From Chitinophaga niabensis (GTDB lineage Bacteria; Bacteroidota; Bacteroidia; Chitinophagales; Chitinophagaceae), in assembly GCF_039545795.1 (NCBI RefSeq), contig NZ_CP154260.1, positions 3,043,001-3,107,000 on the forward strand: a DNA stretch of 64,000 nucleotides, in the 5' to 3' direction. Positions 30,474 through 64,000 of this stretch are shown in pieces. Under the pieces are notes generated by a model that ran no database searches, had not been told where the DNA came from, and saw nothing but the letters and a program-made list of their open reading frames with translations. The position numbers and the translations under genes are program-made. Each line of letters opens with the position of its first letter. The stretch's first letter is position 1.

Positions 30474-31709
30474 ATGACAAATACAATTCACATTGGCCTC
30501 ATAAGGGAAGAAAAAATACCACTGGATAACCGCGTAGCTTTTACGCCGCTGCAATGCCAGTGGATCCTTACCCACTACCCTAACGTTCAGATCACGGTAC
30601 AGCCCTCGCCGCACCGCTGTTATAAAGATGAAGAATACCGGGCTGCCGGTATTAATATGGCAGAAGACCTCTCCCATTGCAGCATCCTGCTGGGGATTAA
30701 GGAAGTTCCGGTAAACAGTCTGTTACCCGGTAAAACATACCTCTTCTTCTCCCATACCAAAAAGAAACAGCCGCAGAACCAGGCCATGCTGCAGAACATC
30801 CTCAAAAAGAACATCCGGCTCATTGACTATGAATGCCTGGTACATGAAGATGGCCAGCGCATCCTGGGCTTCGGGTTCTTTGCCGGCGTGGTAGGTGCAC
30901 ATAACGGACTGCTGGAATATGGCCGCAGAACTGGCCTGTTCAACTTCAAGCGGGTACACGAGTGCCACGACTTCCAGGAACTGATCACGCACTACTTCGG
31001 CGTAAAACTGCCTCCCCTGAAGATAGTGGCTACCGGCTCCGGCCGCGTTACCGCAGGCATACTGGAGGTAATGGGGCTGCTGGCCATCAAGTACATCCCG
31101 CCTGAAGAGTTTATGATCAACTCCTACGCCTACCCTGTGTACACACAGCTGAAGGCAGGGGAATTGTATTTAAGGAAGACGGATAAAACCTACAGCCGGG
31201 AAGACTTCCACGCCAACCCTGGTAAATATGACTGCAAGTTCCTCCCCTATGTTACCTGCAGTGATGTACTCATGAATGGCATCTATTGGGACAAGAGCAT
31301 AGAACCCCTCTTCACCTGGGACGATCTTACCAAAGATAACTTCCGCATACAGGTAATAGCAGACATCACAGATGATCAGAACGGCTCCATTCCCTGCAAT
31401 ATAGAAGACGCAACCATCGAGGAGCCCGTTTATGGCGTAAACCGCTATAACAGGCAGAAAACGGCCCCTTATGAAGCGGATTCTGTTACCATGATGTGCG
31501 TGAGCAACCTCCCTAATGAACTTCCCCGGGATGCCTCCCAGTTCTTTGGCGATCAATTAATGAAATATGTGTTTGATGAATTGATGAAAGGAGATACAAC
31601 CATGATCGAAAAGGCCACCATTACCCGTGATGGTGTATTGACGGAAAGGTATTCCTACATGGAAGATTATGCTAAAGGTAAAGGTAGTACTGTTGAAGCA
31701 ACGCACTGA
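30474..31709 (+). CDS. Saccharopine/alanine dehydrogenase-like NAD(P)-dependent oxidoreductase
   Basis: 411 residues from ATG 30474 (MTNTIHIGLIREEKIPLDNRV); the frame could extend to GTG 30456. The N-terminal domain (IGLIREEK..DNRVAFTP, HRCYKDEEYRAAG, ILLGIKEVP, YLFFSHTKKKQPQN) is that of the alanine dehydrogenase/transhydrogenase N-terminal family. The Rossmann segment PLKIVATGSGRVTAGILEVM (about 184-203) keeps GxGxVxxG-like spacing. Related fungal enzymes are NAD-dependent saccharopine dehydrogenases of lysine metabolism. The substrate here is not set by context. Convergent with trmN6, with a 38-bp overlap at the 3' ends. Confidence 0.8.
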   Translation: MTNTIHIGLIREEKIPLDNRVAFTPLQCQWILTHYPNVQITVQPSPHRCYKDEEYRAAGINMAEDLSHCSILLGIKEVPVNSLLPGKTYLFFSHTKKKQPQNQAMLQNILKKNIRLIDYECLVHEDGQRILGFGFFAGVVGAHNGLLEYGRRTGLFNFKRVHECHDFQELITHYFGVKLPPLKIVATGSGRVTAGILEVMGLLAIKYIPPEEFMINSYAYPVYTQLKAGELYLRKTDKTYSREDFHANPGKYDCKFLPYVTCSDVLMNGIYWDKSIEPLFTWDDLTKDNFRIQVIADITDDQNGSIPCNIEDATIEEPVYGVNRYNRQKTAPYEADSVTMMCVSNLPNELPRDASQFFGDQLMKYVFDELMKGDTTMIEKATITRDGVLTERYSYMEDYAKGKGSTVEATH

Positions 31710-36845: not shown

Positions 36846-36866
36846 CCCCCATTTTATTAAAGACGG

Positions 36867-38450
36867 ATGAAATACGAAAACGAGATCAACAAAAGGAAGT
36901 CATTTGCCATCATCGCTCACCCGGATGCCGGAAAAACAACCCTCACGGAAAAGTTCCTCCTCTTCGGGGGCGCTATCCAAACGGCGGGCGCGGTAAAATC
37001 CAATAAGATCAAGAAACATACTACTTCAGACTTCATGGAAATTGAACGCCAGAGAGGTATCTCTGTGGCCACTTCCGTGATGACCTTTGAATACAGGGAT
37101 ATTCTTGTGAACCTGCTGGATACCCCCGGTCACAAGGACTTTGCCGAAGATACCTACCGCACCCTTACAGCAGTAGACAGCGTTGTGCTGGTGATTGACT
37201 GTGTAAAGGGGGTGGAAGAGCAAACCAAAAAACTCATGGAAGTTTGCCGCATGCGCGATACGCCGGTGATCATCTTCGTGAACAAACTGGACCGCGATGG
37301 CAAAAACCCCTTCGACCTGCTGGATGAACTGGAAGAACTCCTCAACATCCGCGTACGCCCGCTGAGCTGGCCTATCAATATGGGTAAGGACTTCAAAGGC
37401 GTATTCAACCTCTACGATAAGAGCTTTGTTTCCTTTGCTGCCAACAGGAAAGCAACGGATGATGATATTGTACCGCTGCAGGACCTCAGCAGTGCTGAGG
37501 TGGATGAACTCTTCAACCCCACCGATGCCAAACAACTGCGCAACGATGTGGAGCTGATTGAAGGGGTGTACGATCAGTTTGATAAAGAAGCTTACCTGGA
37601 AGGGAAACTGGCCCCTGTGTTCTTCGGCTCTGCCGTAAACAACTTTGGCGTAAAAGACCTGCTGGATACTTTCGTGGAAATTGCCCCCACGCCACGTGAC
37701 CGGCAATCCACTACGCGGGAAGTGAAAGTAAACGAACCTAAATTCTCCGGTTTCATTTTCAAGATCCACGCTAACCTGGATCCCCGCCACCGCGACCGGA
37801 TTGCCTTCCTCCGTGTTTGCTCCGGTAAGTTTGAAAGAAATAAATACTTCCACCACGTAAGGCTGGATAAGGATGTGCGTTTCGCGAACCCTTACAGCTT
37901 CCTTGCACGGGAAAAGAATATCATCGATGATGCTTATCCCGGAGACGTGGTAGGTTTATTCGATACCGGTAACTTCAAGATCGGCGATACTTTAACGGAA
38001 GGAGAAAACTTCTACTTCACCGGCATTCCCAGCTTCTCCCCTGAGTTGTTCAAGGAACTGGTGAATAAAGACCCGATGAAAACAAAACAACTGGAAAAAG
38101 GGATCAACCAGTTAACAGACGAAGGAGTAGCACAGCTCTTCACGCAGCACAACGGTAACCGTAAGATCATCGGTTGCGTGGGAGATCTGCAGTTTGAAGT
38201 GATACAATACCGGCTGTTACAGGAATATGGTGCATCCTGCCAGTTCAATACCTTACCTTTCTACAAAGCCTGCTGGATCACAGGGCCTAAACAGAAGCTG
38301 GAAGAATTCACCCGCTTTAAAGGCGCTAACGTAGTACAGGATAAAGACGGTCACCTGGTGTACCTCGCACAATCAGAATGGTACCTCAATACAGAACGGG
38401 CCAATAACCCGGAGATTGAGTTTCACTTTACTTCAGAGATCCACAAATAA
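36867..38450 (+). CDS. prfC: Peptide chain release factor 3
   Basis: 527 residues. Translational GTPase: P-loop AHPDAGKTT (17-25), switch region [15 protein letters not shown]3 DTPGHKDF, and G4 [18 protein letters not shown]. The residues after the G domain (domain II with [25 protein letters not shown], then domain III with [12 protein letters not shown]) identify RF3 rather than EF-G. RF3 recycles RF1/RF2 after peptide release. Its own transcript is suggested by the upstream -7 box and a strong terminator 90 bp downstream. Confidence 0.97.
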
Positions 38451-54741: not shown

Positions 54742-55686
54742 TTATTTGTGCTTTAGGGAATTCACCTGCTGCTTTAATTCCTTCACTACTTCCTCCAGCT
54801 TCTTACGCTGCTTCTGCTCTTCAATCAAATATAATGTCAGCTCCTCTACTTTCAGCAACAGCTTACTGTTCATCTCTCCTATATCATGCCCGCCCTGTTC
54901 GACCTGGTTGGCTGAAGGAATGCCAGGAAGATGTTTCTTATCTTCAATAAATTTCGCTACTTCTGAGAGGTCTGGTAAAGGGTAACCTTCTTCAAATACA
55001 AAATCAGGCCAGCCGGTGGCAAGCACTTTTACTTTTTTTGCAGTAATAGTACCAGCTACAGATAATTCTGATTGCGGGTTCCTCGTTCCAACACCCACAT
55101 ATCCGTTTTCTTTGACGTTTAATGCAGCTACAGCAGAATTAGCTGTAACAGGATTACCCACATACAGGCTCCATTCATTTGTCATTGGCTGTAATTTTGT
55201 GACGGTAAGATCGTTTCCAGTAACGGACAATGGTACCCAGCCCGCATTTATATTAATTGATCTTACCTTAATGTTAACAGTGAGAGGGTCGGTAGTAATA
55301 CCCAGGGTATTGATGGCACGTATCCTGAAGCGGGCATTACCATATTCGGTATTACAATCCACTGTAAAATTTCGTTGTGTTGCCAGAATATATCCATTAT
55401 TGTTCACCATTCCCGTTTCACGCCAAACGGCAGGATTTGCATGAGAAATGCTGGCCCGATGGGTAGCTGCGGCAGCTATATTGCCCCGGGTATAGGATAT
55501 AGAAATATCATAGTATCCGGAGGCGGCCGCATCTATAGGCAGGACTCTCAGAAATTCGATATAATCTCCTACTACATAACCTGCGGGGAAAGTCACGTAG
55601 ATAGAGTATTCGTCACTGACGTTAGGAGATGCAAAGCTGAACACGCTTAACAAAGCGAACATAGGTAACAGGATGAATTTTTTCAT
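54742..55686 (-). CDS. Exported tail-fibre-like protein with coiled-coil C-terminus
   Basis: 314 residues with a signal peptide (MKKFILLPMFALLSVFSFASPNVSDEYSIYVTFPAGY). A beta-rich middle (DISISYTRGNIAAAATHRAS, GNARFRIRAINTLGI) leads to the recurrent Bacteroidota tail-fibre motif: GYVGVGTRNPQSELSVAGTI, then TAKKVKVLATGWPDFVFEEGY, PLPDLSEVAKFIEDKKHLPG and IPSANQVEQGGHDIGEMNSKLLLKVEELTLYLIE. A basic coiled coil (about 280-314, EEQKQRKKLEEVVKELKQQV) ends it. The motif resembles the C-terminal self-assembly part of phage-like fibres. Close relatives sit next to Rhs-type genes in other Bacteroidota, and a truncated copy of this gene's start lies beside the Rhs region at 62.5 kb. Confidence 0.8.
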   Translation of the reverse strand: MKKFILLPMFALLSVFSFASPNVSDEYSIYVTFPAGYVVGDYIEFLRVLPIDAAASGYYDISISYTRGNIAAAATHRASISHANPAVWRETGMVNNNGYILATQRNFTVDCNTEYGNARFRIRAINTLGITTDPLTVNIKVRSININAGWVPLSVTGNDLTVTKLQPMTNEWSLYVGNPVTANSAVAALNVKENGYVGVGTRNPQSELSVAGTITAKKVKVLATGWPDFVFEEGYPLPDLSEVAKFIEDKKHLPGIPSANQVEQGGHDIGEMNSKLLLKVEELTLYLIEEQKQRKKLEEVVKELKQQVNSLKHK

Positions 55687-55817
55687 GGGTGATCGGGGTT
55701 TTTATGAGTCCTGCAAAATAAGCATATTTCAATGGATTGCATAGTCAATTTGTTGATATAGATCAACTTTTTGAAAGATCATATTCCGTAAATTGGATTT
55801 CACCAAAACTCAATCTT

Positions 55818-57472: not shown

Positions 57473-57718
57473 ATGAAATGTCCAAATTGCAGCGAAACGC
57501 TGCTCATGACACAGCGGAACAATGTTGAGATCGACTATTGCCCGAAATGCCGCGGCATCTGGCTGGATAAAGGAGAGCTGGACAAACTGCTGGAATATGA
57601 CAACAAACGCAGCAACGATGAGCACCACCGGTATGACAACGACCATGATCATGACCGCCATAAACAACATCCCAGGAAAAAACGAGGCTTCCTTGGCGAC
57701 TTTTTTGATTTCGATTAA
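57473..57718 (+). CDS. zf-TFIIB zinc-ribbon protein
   Basis: 81 residues. The zinc ribbon is CPNC (3-6) and CPKC (23-26) in MKCPNCSETLLM and IDYCPKCRGIWLDKGELDKLLEYD, the PF13453-type zf-TFIIB signature. A His/Asp/Arg-rich linker and a hydrophobic GFLGDFFDFD end follow. Function unknown; perhaps nucleic-acid or protein binding. terC follows after 18 bp, likely co-transcribed. A truncated second copy lies at 62145. Confidence 0.88.
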   Translation: MKCPNCSETLLMTQRNNVEIDYCPKCRGIWLDKGELDKLLEYDNKRSNDEHHRYDNDHDHDRHKQHPRKKRGFLGDFFDFD

Positions 57719-57736
57719 TGCTTAAAAACTCAGATA

Positions 57737-58513
57737 ATGGAATTTATTATTCCCGATTTCGCCGACGCTTCCGTCTGGATCAGCCTGATCACACTTTGTT
57801 TCCTTGAAGTAGTGCTGGGCATTGACAATATCATCTTCATATCCATCGTGGCAGGGAAACTGCCGGAACACCAGCAGCGCAAAGCCCGGAACATCGGGTT
57901 GGGGCTGGCCATGTTGTTCAGGGTAGGCCTGTTATTATGCATCAACTGGATCATTGGTCTCAAAGACCCCGTGATTAATTTCAAATGGCTGAACGGTACG
58001 GTGATCCCACTCAGTTGGAAGGATATCATCCTGCTGGCAGGCGGCCTTTTCCTGATCGTTAAAAGCACACTGGAGATACATCATAAGTTGCAGACAGATG
58101 CAGAAGAGGGACATAAAAAGACCCGTGCACCCCATAGCCTGGCTTCCGTGCTATTACAGATAGTGCTGGTAGATGCCGTCTTTTCCTTTGATTCTATCCT
58201 AACTGCAGTAGGTCTTGTGGACAATGTGCTGGTGATGATCATTGCAGTAGTAGTGTCTATCCTGATCATGATGCTGTTTGCAGGGCCCGTTACAAAGGTC
58301 ATCAACAAGCAGCCCACGCTGCAAATGCTGGCGCTTACATTCCTGATAGTAATAGGTGTGGTACTGATTGCCAGTGGTTTCCACCAGGAGATCAGCAAGA
58401 GTATCATTTATTCCTGTTTGGGCTTCTCATTGATCGTGGAACTACTGAATATACGGCTGAGAGGGAAAAATGCGAAGAATATTGAATTGAATACGCCGAG
58501 GGACGTTAAATAG
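57737..58513 (+). CDS. TerC family integral membrane protein
   Basis: 258 residues. Seven to eight membrane helices, starting SVWISLITLCFLEVVLGIDNIIFISIVAGKLP with the TerC signature GIDN (about 29-32), a matching acidic motif VLVDAVFSFDSILTAVGLV (about 143-162), and a C-terminal helix AIIYSCLGFSLIVELLNIR-like. TerC proteins are linked to tellurium resistance and to Mn or Ca export or metallation of exported proteins. The two Asp/Asn motifs sit in the middle of the membrane as in the family. Confidence 0.92.
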   Translation: MEFIIPDFADASVWISLITLCFLEVVLGIDNIIFISIVAGKLPEHQQRKARNIGLGLAMLFRVGLLLCINWIIGLKDPVINFKWLNGTVIPLSWKDIILLAGGLFLIVKSTLEIHHKLQTDAEEGHKKTRAPHSLASVLLQIVLVDAVFSFDSILTAVGLVDNVLVMIIAVVVSILIMMLFAGPVTKVINKQPTLQMLALTFLIVIGVVLIASGFHQEISKSIIYSCLGFSLIVELLNIRLRGKNAKNIELNTPRDVK

Positions 58514-59617: not shown

Positions 59618-59713
59618 TTATTTCTTGTCCTTAAAATCTCCGTGTTCATCCAGGTCCTCCACAACACTATCAACAAAAAATATGGCAATACTGCCAATAA
59701 AGATCTTTTTCAT
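59618..59713 (-). CDS. Tiny ORF, 31 residues
   Basis: ATG at 59713 reads MKKIFIGSIAIFFVDSVVED and ends LDEHGDFKDKK. The basic start and short hydrophobic run look like a very short membrane peptide. It precedes the lipoprotein gene by 8 bp. Could be a real small peptide or the stump of a longer gene. Confidence 0.3.
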   Translation of the reverse strand: MKKIFIGSIAIFFVDSVVEDLDEHGDFKDKK

Positions 59714-60077
59714 AGATACGTTTATCCAAGGTTAAAAATTATACCCCAGCCTAAATTTTCCGGGTCCATCCCTGGCACTTGGGAATTAGCCAAGAAATCA
59801 TACAACAAAACATCGTATTCCCTTTCAACTTATTATTCCAGCCTAAAAGCAATATCATATTATTCAACACTATTGGATTGGGCTTTTACTTATCCTTGTC
59901 CACTACAATACTGTATGAAAAATGCCTCGCCTGTCCTCCAGCTATTCTATAAAATCCTTTTTTGTATCCTTGTCTGAAGAATAGTCATAAAGTACTTATC
60001 GATCTCTATGAAAAACTCTCAATTAGAGACGCTGAATAAAGCAAAAATGGATCTCATTATTAATAAACAAACATTAA
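59714..60077. other. A+T-rich region with possible gene debris
   Basis: 364 bases without an intact gene. A minus-strand frame near 59733-59785 ends in KFRLGYNF-stop, like the last strand of an outer-membrane barrel, but a stop codon lies close upstream; a possible remnant. Nothing else is clear. Confidence 0.35.
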
Positions 60078-60725
60078 TTACTCATAATTTTCTATTCTAA
60101 GCCGTACCTTTTCCCCATCTTTTAGATTATGTATTTGTTTTGCCAAATCAGCATAATAAAGAAGAAATTTAGGGAAGGCGCTTGCATAAAAATTCTTCAT
60201 TTCATATTCGCCTCCTATAACAAATGGCACCTTAGGTACCAATCTTTGATTGTAGTGAAATGAATTAACCTCACACCAACTTTTAACAAATCCATTTCCT
60301 GTTAGATAATCCAAATTTTCAATCAGATATTTTAACCAGCCCTCAAAATCATCTGACAACCTCTCTCTATCGCCAGTTTCAACATTAAAAAGAACTATGC
60401 TACCATCGCTTTTATCGAAAGCAAACTGATTCCCAAATACTTCCTGTCCAAAAGAAAATAACCCTTCAAACAAATATCCAAACTCCTTACTTAGGACATC
60501 ATTTACTAATTGAATATTGGAAAAATCACTAGTAGAAATAAAAGAATATATATGTAATGATTGATTGAAGAAAAAGCCTCCATTACCAATCGATTTGATA
60601 AAATCAAAATACTGATCATCCTTTAAAATTTCCTTATAACTGATGAGCAATGTTTGATCTACATTATTATCTAACATCGTCTCACTCTTGTTGTTTAAGA
60701 AGACAGATATTTCATTCTTTATCAT
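60078..60725 (-). CDS. SMI1/KNR4 (SUKH)-type predicted immunity protein
   Basis: 215 residues. KSIGNGGFFFNQSLHIYSF and, further on, FGQEVFGNQFAFDKSDGSIVLFNVETGDRERLSDDFEGWLKYLIEN show the SUKH/SMI1-KNR4 pattern (G-G-x-x-F early, then FGxxxFGxxFAFD, then W near an acidic helix). Such proteins protect cells against polymorphic toxins, often nucleases. It lies downstream of the displaced Rhs cassette and its neighbour immunity gene, on the same strand. Lower G+C than the housekeeping genes. Which toxin it counters is not known. Confidence 0.7.
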   Translation of the reverse strand: MIKNEISVFLNNKSETMLDNNVDQTLLISYKEILKDDQYFDFIKSIGNGGFFFNQSLHIYSFISTSDFSNIQLVNDVLSKEFGYLFEGLFSFGQEVFGNQFAFDKSDGSIVLFNVETGDRERLSDDFEGWLKYLIENLDYLTGNGFVKSWCEVNSFHYNQRLVPKVPFVIGGEYEMKNFYASAFPKFLLYYADLAKQIHNLKDGEKVRLRIENYE

Positions 60726-60886: not shown

Positions 60887-61303
60887 TTATGTAAGTATGT
60901 TTATCGAATCAACCATTTCTTTAACGATATCCTTTTCTACAAGTCGATCGCTAAAGTTACAATTGTATGTTCCAAATACAGCTTTATTGTTTTTGTATAA
61001 TACCCAGTACTTCCAGTAATATTGCCCTTCAAGTACAAACTCTTTCTCTTCATAATTATCAGCACTTACCTGGGCAAGCAAATTTTCTGCATTATTCGCA
61101 TTTTCGTTGGATGATACAAAATCTGACAGCTCCATACCAACATCAAAATTATACGTAGCTGGGATGACATACGCAGATAAATTTATTGCGCCAACCCCAT
61201 TTTTATCATCAGTTATACTTATTGTATTTCCGCCTTCTTCAATCAAATAACTAGCTGGAACTTTAATTGAAAATATATTTGATTTAGATTTATATTCATT
61301 CAT
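60887..61303 (-). CDS. Predicted immunity protein of the displaced Rhs cassette
   Basis: 138 residues, MNEYKSKSNIFSIKVPASYLIEEGGNTISITD... A compact alpha/beta domain without signal peptide, resembling small DUF3805-like proteins that accompany Rhs-type toxins in Bacteroidota (inference by pattern, not certain). Its start is 9 bp downstream of the stop (61313) of the restored Rhs tip frame, the usual toxin-immunity spacing. A+T-rich. Followed by a hairpin terminator. Confidence 0.55.
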   Translation of the reverse strand: MNEYKSKSNIFSIKVPASYLIEEGGNTISITDDKNGVGAINLSAYVIPATYNFDVGMELSDFVSSNENANNAENLLAQVSADNYEEKEFVLEGQYYWKYWVLYKNNKAVFGTYNCNFSDRLVEKDIVKEMVDSINILT

Positions 61304-61312
61304 ACAAAACGT

Positions 61313-62087
61313 TTAAGGATTAGGTTTGGTTACCGGTTTAGTTGGATCATAATAAATCACACGCCCATTACTCCCTCGGCATTGGCAGTAACGGTACAGT
61401 TGTTAAATTAGCTCCTCCCGCTGGCACTGGCAATTCCTTGAGAATATCAATTGCTTTATCAACGACCATCACTATTCCCGCCGCTGCTCCTCCTGCAATA
61501 ATCCCCTCCGCAATTGCTTCCCCAATAAAAGGTAAAGCAGGACAGATAGGGCATTTACCATCTGGATCGCTAAACCGTATTGGATTGTTATATGAGAAGT
61601 GATATGGGCTGATTGCTTCCTGACCACCCTCATCCGTAAACGGATCTATTTGTAAAAATCTTCCCGTCTGCTGATCATAGGTTCTTGCATTAAAATCATA
61701 CCAAGCTAGTCCGCTACCATCAGTAAACTCCTTCTGCTGAAGCTCATTTCCATTAAATAGTATTTTGTTTTCTAACTTACCAACAGCACTTGAACTGATC
61801 CCACTCATGGTGAGCCCAAATGGATAATAGTGTGTTTCCTCTAATACAGGCCCTGTAATATGATCCAGTATCACATTGTCAAAGAACACATCCTGCGGAC
61901 TCTCATTGCTGGTATAAATATACAAAAAACCACTTTCCTTTACCACCATCTTATCCTGTGCCAGTGTCTGCAGCTGATCTGGCTCTGCTTTCACCTGCTT
62001 CACCCCACCGTTCTCTTCCACCATCTTAAACTGCTCATTGAACAACACGAAGTTCAAATAAGCTTAGGTCTGCCGGTCAGATCTACT
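61313..62087 (-). pseudogene. Displaced Rhs C-terminal cassette with two frameshifts
   Basis: The main frame (61368-62057) reads LNFVLFNEQFKMVEENGG, then ESGFLYIYTSNESPQDVFFDN, ETHYYPFGLTMSGISSSAVGKLEN and WYDFNARTYDQQTGRFLQIDPFTDEG: the RHS-repeat-associated core. There is no start codon: homology begins abruptly at about 62087 (VDLTGRPK), one base short of frame at 62064-62067 (AAGC where AAAGC would join RPK to AYLNF). At the other end, the tip after the core (ALPFIGEAIAEGIIAGGAAAG) stops at 61368, but a one-base shift in a GGG run gives SNGRVIYYDPTKPVTKPNP ending at 61313, 9 bp before the next gene. An orphan, probably silent Rhs-CT module. Confidence 0.75.
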
Positions 62088-62144
62088 GTTTATCCTTCTC
62101 TTTTAAATGCTCGTATTGCTTGTTATAAAAGTCTGAAGTGAAGG
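62083..62144 (-). pseudogene. C-terminal stump of an unknown gene
   Basis: Minus-strand frame ending TSDFYNKQYEHLKEKDKQ-stop at 62083. Upstream it is cut at 62145, where the zf-TFIIB copy begins, and the Rhs fragment starts where this stump stops. Composition (K/E/Y-rich end) is that of a real protein, perhaps a lost immunity gene. Family unknown. Confidence 0.4.
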
Positions 62145-62352
62145 GCGGAACAACGTTGAGATCGATTATTGCCCGAAATGCCGTGGCATCTGGCTGGATA
62201 AAGGTGAACTGGACAAGCTGCTGGAACATGACAACAAACGCAGCAGCGATGAATACCGCCGGTATGATGACGACCATGGCCACGACCGCCATAAACATCA
62301 ACATCCCAGGAAAAAGAAAGGCTTCCTTGGCGACTTTTTTGATTTCGATTAA
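62145..62352 (+). pseudogene. Truncated second copy of the zf-TFIIB gene
   Basis: Matches 57514-57718 from GCGGAACAA through the stop codon, with the first ~14 codons (including the first CPNC) missing. The frame is intact: NNVEIDYCPKCRGIWLDKGE ... LLEHDNKRSSDEYRRYDDDHGHDRHKHQHP ... GFLGDFFDFD. There are many synonymous changes, a few residue changes and one extra codon in the His-rich linker. No start codon, so it should not be expressed. Confidence 0.9.
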
Positions 62353-62371
62353 TTCTTAAAAACCTCAGATA

Positions 62372-62466
62372 ATGGAATTTATTATTCCCGATTTCGCCGA
62401 TGCTTCCGTATGGATCAGCCTGATCACCCTTTGCTTCCTGGAAGTAGTACTGGGTATTGACAATAT
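62372..62466 (+). pseudogene. Truncated second copy of terC (first 31 codons)
   Basis: Matches 57737-57831. Encodes MEFIIPDFADASVWISLITL and CFLEVVLGIDN identically to the intact terC, while seven bases differ, all silent. The match ends abruptly at 62466, where the tail-fibre-like fragment begins in the opposite orientation. The spacing to the zf copy is also kept. Confidence 0.95.
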
Positions 62467-62597
62467 TCGATATAATCTCCTACTACATAACCGGCGGGGA
62501 AAGTCACGTAGATAGAGTATTCGTCACTGACGTTAGGAGATGCAAAGCTGAACACGCTTAACAAAGCGAACATAGGTAACAGGATAAGTTTTTTCAT
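62465..62597 (-). pseudogene. Truncated second copy of the tail-fibre-like gene (first 44 codons)
   Basis: Matches 55554-55686 over ~133 bp with only three differences: MKKLILLPMFALLSVFSFAS... in place of MKKFILL. It is cut at the junction with the terC copy after VGDYIEF. The junction shares only AT with both parents. Confidence 0.95.
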
Positions 62598-62640
62598 GAT
62601 CTGGGTAACTATTTTTTATGTTCTATTAAGAAATATTTGA

Positions 62641-62653
62641 ACGGCGAAGCCGT
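62641..62653 (-). terminator. Short hairpin after the predicted immunity gene at 62663
   Basis: ACGGC-GAA-GCCGT, a perfect 5-bp stem with a 3-nt loop, 9 bp after the stop of the gene at 62663-62914. On the minus strand it is followed by TTCAAATATTTC, only moderately T-rich; a weak terminator candidate. Confidence 0.4.
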
Positions 62654-62662
62654 AACAGATAA

Positions 62663-62914
62663 CTATAAATATTTCTCAAAGATATTCTCTCCTTTATAAA
62701 AAACACTGTACAAACTGTTTTCATCTAAAATTGAAATTACAGCTTTACCACTGTCAATAAATACCTTCAACTGAATGCTTTCTTCACAAGAATCTGTTTC
62801 AACTTTAATTTCTTCGTTAACAGGTAGTTTAAAAATAAAGCATTCAGGTTCGTGTATTATTTCCATTTCAGAATCTGAACTATTGAAAATTTTAAAACTT
62901 GTTTTTTGTTTCAT
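62663..62914 (-). CDS. Predicted immunity protein of the main Rhs toxin
   Basis: 83 residues, MKQKTSFKIFNSSDSEMEIIHEPE. Small acidic alpha/beta protein without signal peptide (IKVETDSCEESIQLKVFIDSGKAVISILDENSLYSVFY). The start lies 18 bp after the Rhs stop, the normal position for the cognate immunity gene. I do not recognise a named family. Assignment rests on position and size. Confidence 0.55.
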   Translation of the reverse strand: MKQKTSFKIFNSSDSEMEIIHEPECFIFKLPVNEEIKVETDSCEESIQLKVFIDSGKAVISILDENSLYSVFYKGENIFEKYL

Positions 62915-62932
62915 TTTTTTATTGTTCTAATT

Positions 62933-64000
62933 TCAAAAGAAAGTTCTTGCTAATTCCATGGCTTGATCCCTTCTAACTACTGCAGCGGCATTTTGTGATC
63001 CCATTTTCTGAGCTTTTACTATCTGATCATTATATGCTCTAGCCAATTTAACTAAGTTCTCCTTTGTCCATCCATTCTTTAACAATTCTTTCCTGCTAAA
63101 GTCTGAAATAGATTTTGTCAAATTTGTCTTACTCCCCCATCCAAAAAACTCAGCTGCTTCTTTTGTGTTTTTACCCAGAGATTCTAAAAAACGAGTTAAA
63201 GTTGTACCCCTGGCTTTAGTAACCACATTAGCTACAGGCGCCACCGTAGGGGAGTTAGCAGCTTTAGCAGGTAGCAGTTTTGCCATAGAAATGACCATAA
63301 ATCCCAAATTAGCTGCATTTCTACCTGCTTCCTCCTGCGACAATTCCTCATCCCATATTTTTGCTTTTACTAACGTATTTACAAACTGTTGATCCTCAAC
63401 TTCATCAAGTATCTTTTCTCCTGCCGCACTATACTTATGCCGTCCCTCTCCATATGACACCTGTGGGCTAACATTAAGAATACCATTTTCTCCCACTGAG
63501 GTTTTTGTCTTTAGCACATACCACTCTCCAAACTCGTTCTTATGCACTGCGCCACCATTAAACAAAGAGTGTAACATTGCTCCAACCCTTGTCTTAAAAT
63601 CACCTAAAGGATCAACTTCGTTAACAGGGTTATTACCCATACTTTCATAGGGGGAAGAATTTGTCAATGATTCTGCTTCAGGGTCAATCTGCCACCATCT
63701 GCCTATCTGTGGATCCAATGTTCTATAAAAAGCATCGTATTGATTAAGATCTAAATCCTCCGTATGCTCTATTCCGTTAAAATGTTTCCTATTCTCCAGC
63801 TTCCCTGGTGCTTTTGAACTGATCCCATCCATCGTCAACCCAAACGGATAATAATGGGTCTCCTCCAACACCGGGCCTGTGATATGGTCAAGGATCAAAT
63901 TGTCAAAGAACACATCCTGCGGGCTTTCGTTGCTCGTATAAATATACAGAAAACCACTCTCCTTCACCACCATCTTGCCCTGCGCCAAGGTCTGTAATTG
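62933..64000 (-). CDS. Rhs-family protein, C-terminal part (runs past window end)
   Basis: The open frame continues beyond base 64000 upstream. Visible part: conserved pre-core (ESGFLYIYTSNESPQDVFFDN, ETHYYPFGLTMDGISS), then the core variant FNGIEHTEDLDLNQYDAFYRTLDPQIGRWWQIDPEAESL with NPVNEVDPLGDF marking the end of the core. About 220 residues of variable tip follow: KTRVGAMLHSLFNGG, YGEGRHKYSAAGEKILDEVED, AANLGFMVISMAKLLPAKAANS (a hydrophobic segment) and a C-terminal domain DFSRKELLKNGWTKENLVKLARAYNDQ ... NAAAVVRRDQAMELARTFF. The tip is presumably a toxin; I cannot name its fold. The predicted immunity gene follows 18 bp downstream. Confidence 0.85.
   Translation of the reverse strand, partial: QLQTLAQGKMVVKESGFLYIYTSNESPQDVFFDNLILDHITGPVLEETHYYPFGLTMDGISSKAPGKLENRKHFNGIEHTEDLDLNQYDAFYRTLDPQIGRWWQIDPEAESLTNSSPYESMGNNPVNEVDPLGDFKTRVGAMLHSLFNGGAVHKNEFGEWYVLKTKTSVGENGILNVSPQVSYGEGRHKYSAAGEKILDEVEDQQFVNTLVKAKIWDEELSQEEAGRNAANLGFMVISMAKLLPAKAANSPTVAPVANVVTKARGTTLTRFLESLGKNTKEAAEFFGWGSKTNLTKSISDFSRKELLKNGWTKENLVKLARAYNDQIVKAQKMGSQNAAAVVRRDQAMELARTFF

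Follow-up and report, generated by a model that had tools for sequence, protein, structure and literature searches.

A gene scar beside an orphan Rhs tip in Chitinophaga niabensis may record how Rhs toxin tips are swapped

Between two Rhs C-terminal cassettes of Chitinophaga niabensis, pieces of truncated housekeeping and tail-fibre-like genes lie directly against one another, and the locus raises the question of how they came to be there. The window analyzed here is a stretch of 64,000 nucleotides, bases 3043001 to 3107000 of the one-contig 7.2-Mb genome (G000); to the right of its end, reading was continued in extended window coordinates. From left to right the locus contains the tail-fibre-like gene T, a 300-aa gene, zf-TFIIB, terC, small genes that include a flank fossil, two putative immunity genes, an orphan Rhs tip (CT1) with its stub of Rhs core, the scar itself, imm1, and Rhs1. 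Beyond Rhs1 follow a large YD-type gene, a broken fibre-like fragment, a second orphan tip, Rhs2, its partner gene, an intact fibre-like gene, and a 479-aa gene (Table 1). Unless a family match is cited, YD-type, fibre-like, orphan tip, and immunity are names that we assigned. T has no Pfam match, and its PHROG matches are all nonsignificant. There is likewise no Pfam match for imm1; a homologue of imm1 adjoins a homologous tip in G013, at 70% DNA identity.

Table 1. Features of the terC-Rhs locus, in window coordinates or, where so marked, extended window coordinates
Feature	Position	Strand	Basis or remark
T, intact tail-fibre-like gene, parent of B	54742-55686	minus	ORFs, self-BLAST
Intact zf-TFIIB gene, local copy	57473-57718	plus	ORF; Pfam Zn_ribbon_TFIIB
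Intact terC, local copy	57737-58513	plus	ORF; Pfam TerC
Second flank fossil, right border of Rhs array	59648-59837 (parent 82292-82481 extended)	minus	
Putative immunity gene	60078-60725		SMI1/KNR4 family match
Putative immunity gene	60887-61303		no significant family
Orphan Rhs tip CT1 and ~450 bp of Rhs core	61368-62145	minus	ORFs, self-BLAST, alignment
A part 1, zf-TFIIB minus first 13 codons and most of codon 14	62145-62352	plus	
A part 2, terC codons 1-31, cut at joint J2	62372-62466	plus	
B, first 44 codons of T	62465-62598	minus	131/134 identical to T
Single-copy DNA downstream of imm1, contains most of stem-loop	62599-62662	minus	
imm1, putative immunity gene of current Rhs1 tip	62663-62914	minus	
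Rhs1 main gene, toxin tip and 3' core	62933-64000 in window	minus	extends to ~67.4 kb, beyond window
Large YD-type gene	67453-71172 extended		
Broken fibre-like fragment	71289-71706 extended (L006:7289-7706)		
Rhs2	73370-77818 extended		
Large partner gene of Rhs2	77822-81328 extended		
Intact fibre-like gene	81374-82357 extended		

Self-comparison of the window recovered the truncated genes that an earlier note on this DNA had described as abutting, with their orientations kept and with intact parents for zf-TFIIB, terC, and T. Piece A (62145-62466) matches 57514-57831 at 90.4% identity with gaps (E = 1.6e-122) and consists of the 3' part of zf-TFIIB and the first 95 nt of terC. Piece B (62465-62598) matches 55554-55687 at 97.8% identity (E = 4.4e-60). 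Both pieces keep their native orientation, and elsewhere in the genome each matches its parent gene only. The fourth fragment of the earlier description, the tail of an unknown minus-strand gene at 62083-62144, turned out to be the orphan's own truncated Rhs core; a separate gene there is ruled out by the alignment of the core with Rhs1 and Rhs2 up to 62145. By self-BLAST, the orphan core (61742-62145) is 80.8% identical to Rhs1 (63766-64171) and 79.3% identical to Rhs2, and its peptide PFTSDFYNKQYEHLKEKDKQ corresponds to PFTSDFYNNQYQHLKEKDKQ in both main Rhs proteins. Its frame is broken near 62060-62085 by a nonsense codon and two 1-nt gaps. The zf part of A carries an in-frame 3-bp insertion, and its frame is open as far as the stop. 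The zf remnant at 62161-62349 is present in the protein database as a 63-aa protein (P0002), which is likely an over-annotation.

The scar therefore consists of three joints. At J1, between the Rhs core and zf-TFIIB, there is a 1-bp overlap without homology. At J2, between terC and T, the overlap is the 2 bp (AT) reported earlier, also without homology, and a 57-aa frame spanning this joint found no homologue in a protein search. At J3, between T and the DNA downstream of imm1, homology to T stops 1 bp beyond the T start codon ATG; a continuation of T's own upstream region past B was rejected, its alignment score being matched by 252 of 500 shuffles. There is no second copy of 62590-62930 in the genome. 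A stem-loop at the 3' end of imm1 (62629-62676) has 10-bp perfect outer arms by eye. It was dropped as a candidate repeated element: it has a single genome copy, and 16 of 200 shuffles fold as well or better (z = -1.55). The ORFs of 48 to 64 kb, read by eye, include no recombinase, which agrees, for that range, with the earlier statement that no transposase or integrase in the window accounts for the remnant; neither a recombinase gene nor repeated inserted DNA, as would mark a transposon or repeated element, was found, and plasmids gave no match to 61800-62900 at the 'near' setting. An assembly artefact is highly improbable, given that the genome is a single 7.2-Mb contig. Moreover, A and B are 90% and 98% identical to their sole other matches in the genome, so they are not simply mis-joined local copies. 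In our view the chimera is real, its mechanism is uncertain, and for the most part the locus reflects ordinary Rhs-array decay. We claim no function for the scar.

The earlier note saw in the joint of terC (57831) to T (55554) the geometry of a tandem duplication arranged head to tail, or of a circle, formed from the local 55.55- to 57.83-kb unit; on this reading the rest of the unit would later have been lost. The geometry of J2, with both orientations kept, and its 2-bp overlap are what such an event would leave. In contrast, the divergence of the two pieces from their local parents is unequal. A differs from the local copy at 27 of 318 ungapped sites (8.5%; 291/318 identical), while B differs from local T at 3 of 134 sites (2.2%), which is a significant difference (Fisher p = 0.013). 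The contrast gains weight from the slower divergence of zf-terC relative to T between species: compared with G026 and G056, T is 74 to 75% identical and zf-terC is 91 to 92% identical. A recent local duplication should therefore have left A no further from its parent than B is from its own, and we did not find two local pieces of equal age. Site patterns point the same way. Among four sequences (A, the local copy, G026, and Chitinophaga sp. SYP-B3965, locus L008, whose alignments are those of G056), derived sites are shared by A and the local copy in 0 cases, by A and G026 in 6, and by A and SYP-B3965 in 3. These results disfavor a recent local duplication or circle, although they stop short of excluding it formally (see the tree comparison below), and we consider it very unlikely.

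A differs from G026 at 23 of 319 sites (296/319 identical), and the local copy differs from G026 at 26 of 318 sites, which is like A's distance from the local copy. In the best tree, built from ten rows, A groups with G026 (support 79/86); placing A beside the local copy costs 3.8 log units, gives a p-AU of 0.095, and is not formally rejected. The zf piece of A reads SSDEYRRYDDDH..KKKG, as in G026, while the local protein reads SNDEHHRYDNDH..KKRG; most of the SSDEYRRYDDDH..KKKG motif is also present in some database alleles. Among the best 120 of 1062 protein matches to the zf piece, the best foreign match is 93% identical, compared with 88% for the local protein. Of the 9 letters found in A alone, 8 occupy third codon positions (p = 0.001 against an expectation of 1/3). 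All 7 differences between the terC part of A and the local copy are also at third positions. The zf part shows 19 differences from the local copy, of which 11 fall at third positions and 8 at first or second ones. A codon-position pattern similar to A's separates the local copy from G026, and both of these are working genes. Judged on these substitution patterns, A is probably an allele from a sister lineage that was functional until it was recently broken, and not a copy of the local genes; the alternative is a second functional copy that was kept vertically. B appears to be local or nearly local. It is 98% identical to local T, and T is only 74 to 75% identical between species, so either a donor T had been recently exchanged or B is local.

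The alternative of vertical descent would have zf-terC, or the whole locus, duplicated at about the time of the split from G026, kept functional for long, and then trimmed, with B overwritten by gene conversion from local T. It accommodates A's nearly equal distance from the local copy and from G026, and the tree test does not reject descent on the local side. The array also holds more flank fossils. The fossil at 59648-59837 comprises the first codons of a fibre-like gene and the last codons of the 479-aa gene, with broken frames, and is identical to the intact right border at 154 of 188 ungapped sites; it is right-border sequence sitting at the left end of the array. The fragment at 71289-71706, the C-terminal part of a fibre-like gene, is 92.8% identical to the intact copy at L006:17419-17836; it lies upstream of the large gene that precedes Rhs1. 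However, an old duplication requires that two functional terC copies persisted through the whole species divergence without homogenization, and among the matches listed for 79 genomes only G000 has a second zf-terC pair. We regard such an old copy as distinctly unlikely. The fragment at 71289-71706 is unlike A, with substitutions at every codon position, an in-frame stop, and a change of frame. We considered a single import of the whole unit from the truncated zf-TFIIB to this fragment and do not claim it, given the different decay pattern.

In order to interpret the position of A, we compared the terC neighborhood in related genomes. A zf-TFIIB gene and terC lie to the left of an Rhs array, separated from it by no more than a few small genes, in G000, G026, and G056, which are the three genomes in which terC was found beside Rhs. 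The order in G026 is zf, terC, small gene, Rhs, large gene, fibre-like gene, 479-aa gene, and T; in G056 it is T, zf, terC, small genes, and Rhs arrays. The genome collection contains 26 terC loci, some with under 10 kb of flanking sequence; among them, only L008 (that is, G056) has at least 300 bases of matching Rhs core near terC, and L028 has a weak core match ~9 kb from terC. Since terC adjoins the array in three genomes, the sequence naturally expected downstream of an Rhs tip and its immunity genes is terC-zf. In the scar, terC-zf follows imm1 on its downstream side, oriented as in those genomes and separated from imm1 by B, so A is in keeping with flanking DNA from a second terC-Rhs junction of foreign origin. 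The position of T is variable: in G000 it lies on the left side of the 300-aa gene, in G056 a small ORF and zf-terC are found to its right, and in G026 it stands to the right of the whole Rhs array. Because T is to the right of terC in G026, a deletion in a locus of that order would yield the terC-T joint without a circle. T between terC and an immunity gene was seen in no genome, which leaves a gap in the argument for import. In G056 (L056 followed by L055, joined; 31265-31403 and 36850-36984), similar upstream regions precede T and a different, lipoprotein-like gene by eye. That lipoprotein-like gene adjoins the 300-aa gene, which looks like a gene swap behind one promoter region.

Based on the allele of A, its position, and the state of the displaced tip, we tentatively favor the explanation that the scar is the debris of an imported Rhs tip, which we regard as quite possible. 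A linear fragment from a sister species, carrying the 3' part of an Rhs core, a toxin tip, imm1, possibly T, terC, and zf in that order, would have entered the cell. One end would have recombined by homology in the resident Rhs core, and the other, lying inside zf, would have been joined illegitimately into the same core at J1, with its 1-bp overlap. The old tip CT1 and its core stub would thereby have been pushed downstream as an orphan, with the donor flank between the stub and the new imm1. Deletions, either later or already in the donor, would then have stripped most of terC and T, leaving J2 and J3; such trimming would be expected because second copies of these genes are not needed. We infer the import itself, as well as the donor, its linearity, a single event, and the order of the deletions.

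Import would explain in one step the displaced tip, the short core stub that ends at J1, and the donor flank that intervenes. It is consistent with the zf-terC order of A, its orientation, and its place beside imm1, which match the arrangement of terC, small genes, and Rhs in G026 and G056, and with the ~450 bp of core that the displaced tip keeps up to J1. Several observations weigh against it. No donor genome was found, and the nearest DNA matches to the Rhs1 tip, among the best 4 candidates per genome, are 70 to 73% identical (G013 and G050). B is discordant, being 98% identical to local T. The grouping of A with G026 is not significant (79/86; p-AU of 0.095 for the local pairing), and the share of zf differences at first or second positions (8 of 19) resembles that between the local copy and G026. 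A frameshift in the orphan core but not in A is awkward for a single event. The 3' cores of Rhs1 and Rhs2 are more alike than their 5' cores. We dropped this likeness as a sign of exchange, since the comparison with G056 shows the same trend and no crossover could be placed.

A rival reading is piecewise patching. Here A, from a sister species, and B, from local T or a clone-mate, would have been inserted separately and without relation to any import of the Rhs1 tip; in one variant, both are filler at end-joined breaks between the two Rhs cassettes. The unequal distances of A and B from their local parents (27/318 against 3/134, p = 0.013) favor separate insertions, and overlaps of only 1 and 2 bp at J1 and J2 are in keeping with them. 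Patching does not explain why the genes of A are arranged and oriented as the flank of an Rhs tip should be, nor why both pieces are in native orientation, and we consider it somewhat unlikely. If the scar did result from random patching, it would be ordinary genome decay.

In order to determine how common such scars are, we searched for the 601-base stretch 62060-62660 in 79 genomes of the genus, including C. niabensis itself, taking the best 7 candidates per genome. Some match was found in 29 of the 79, and the A-B joint was absent from the 78 other genomes among these candidates. In G056, the counterparts of A and B are neighbors in native order, ~0.7 kb apart. We also surveyed 18 further 60-kb Rhs loci, one per genome, and 40 kb each of G026 and G056 for DNA self-matches (E of 1e-6) with parents within the same stretch. 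The 18 loci were chosen by eye from the listed matches to the Rhs1 tip and are not a random sample. Pairs with both ends Rhs-, YD-, or fibre-like were removed; applied to G000, this filter dropped the B pair and recovered A. None of these 20 other loci yielded a clear case of a flanking housekeeping gene present as a truncated copy. Eight pairs in four loci (G053, G030, G005, and G044) were inspected, and two of these loci, G030 and G044, gave partial parallels; G053 and G005 gave no clear one. At G030:C1:3255413-3255680 (L102) there is a two-piece patch that matches two other places in the same Rhs array. In G044, a broken copy, part of it inverted, lies beside an Rhs gene and by eye is probably mobile DNA. 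Thus the broader proposal that Rhs regions capture and trim flanking DNA found no clear further case in this limited survey.

The arrangement can be compared with known orphan-tip arrays. In the available text of Jackson et al. 2009 (PMC2935791), tips are displaced by homologous recombination with circular intermediates that carry core, tip, and intervening genes, and the authors leave open how the circular intermediate arises. The locus studied here resembles the arrays in that text in having a main Rhs gene with its current tip and immunity gene and an older tip with a short core downstream: the CT1 core stub lies downstream of Rhs1 and imm1, and between Rhs1 and Rhs2 there is another orphan tip. 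It differs in that a probably foreign zf-terC flank stands between the core stub and the new immunity gene and in that the core joint lacks homology. In the same text, the dissociated tips of E. coli have a core identical to the resident core within the locus, in contrast to the 80.8% and 79.3% identity of the orphan core to Rhs1 and Rhs2. A circle formed by core-core recombination is not expected to carry terC. The joint could also have arrived ready-made with a donor array, and the circle model as given in that text (PMC2935791) is therefore not refuted.

For Salmonella Typhimurium LT2 (PLoS Genet 2014; PMC3967940), the accessible part of the paper proposes a rearrangement by duplication of the locus and recombination through the shared core. 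As described there, LT2 is like C. niabensis in carrying orphan tip fragments without initiation signals downstream of the main gene; it is unlike it in that the event is the activation of an orphan already in the strain, and a foreign flank scar is not among the features described in that part. The two-ended scheme that we infer for the Rhs core and J1 is the same as homology-facilitated illegitimate recombination, in which, according to the consulted portion of PMC3240628, linear DNA is integrated through homologous recombination of one end and illegitimate joining of the other. What is described there is an experimental phenomenon in a few species; in contrast, our case is read from a genome scar and involves further deletions. 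The low-homology end has its counterpart in the 1-bp overlap of J1. As to the homologous end, the 3' cores of Rhs1 and Rhs2 are the more alike, but both are likewise more alike to that of G056, so that no crossover could be placed. Formation of merodiploids by transformation is covered in the part of PMC3784515 that was available. The available texts of the literature that we consulted, including PMC2935791, PMC3967940, PMC3784515, and PMC3482391, contain no description of donor-flank scars, and literature on Chitinophaga, Rhs, and terC returned, in the parts available, unrelated papers only.

The point of specialist interest is the probably foreign flank allele at the joint of an orphan tip. 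How polymorphic toxins swap their tips without losing the old one is still unsettled, and a donor-flank scar exactly at the orphan-tip joint would favor a simpler route by linear DNA, which is testable in other toxin arrays. As a general statement, that linear DNA of a related species can displace Rhs tips, with core homology at one end and an illegitimate seal into the same core at the other, is unlikely on present evidence. If it is true, a linear route would take the place of the circular intermediate that has been postulated for displacing tips, each displaced orphan should bear a donor-flank scar on its upstream side, and the donors and order of past toxin swaps would be readable from such scars. 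The scar in C. niabensis may be one such record of how Rhs toxin tips get swapped.
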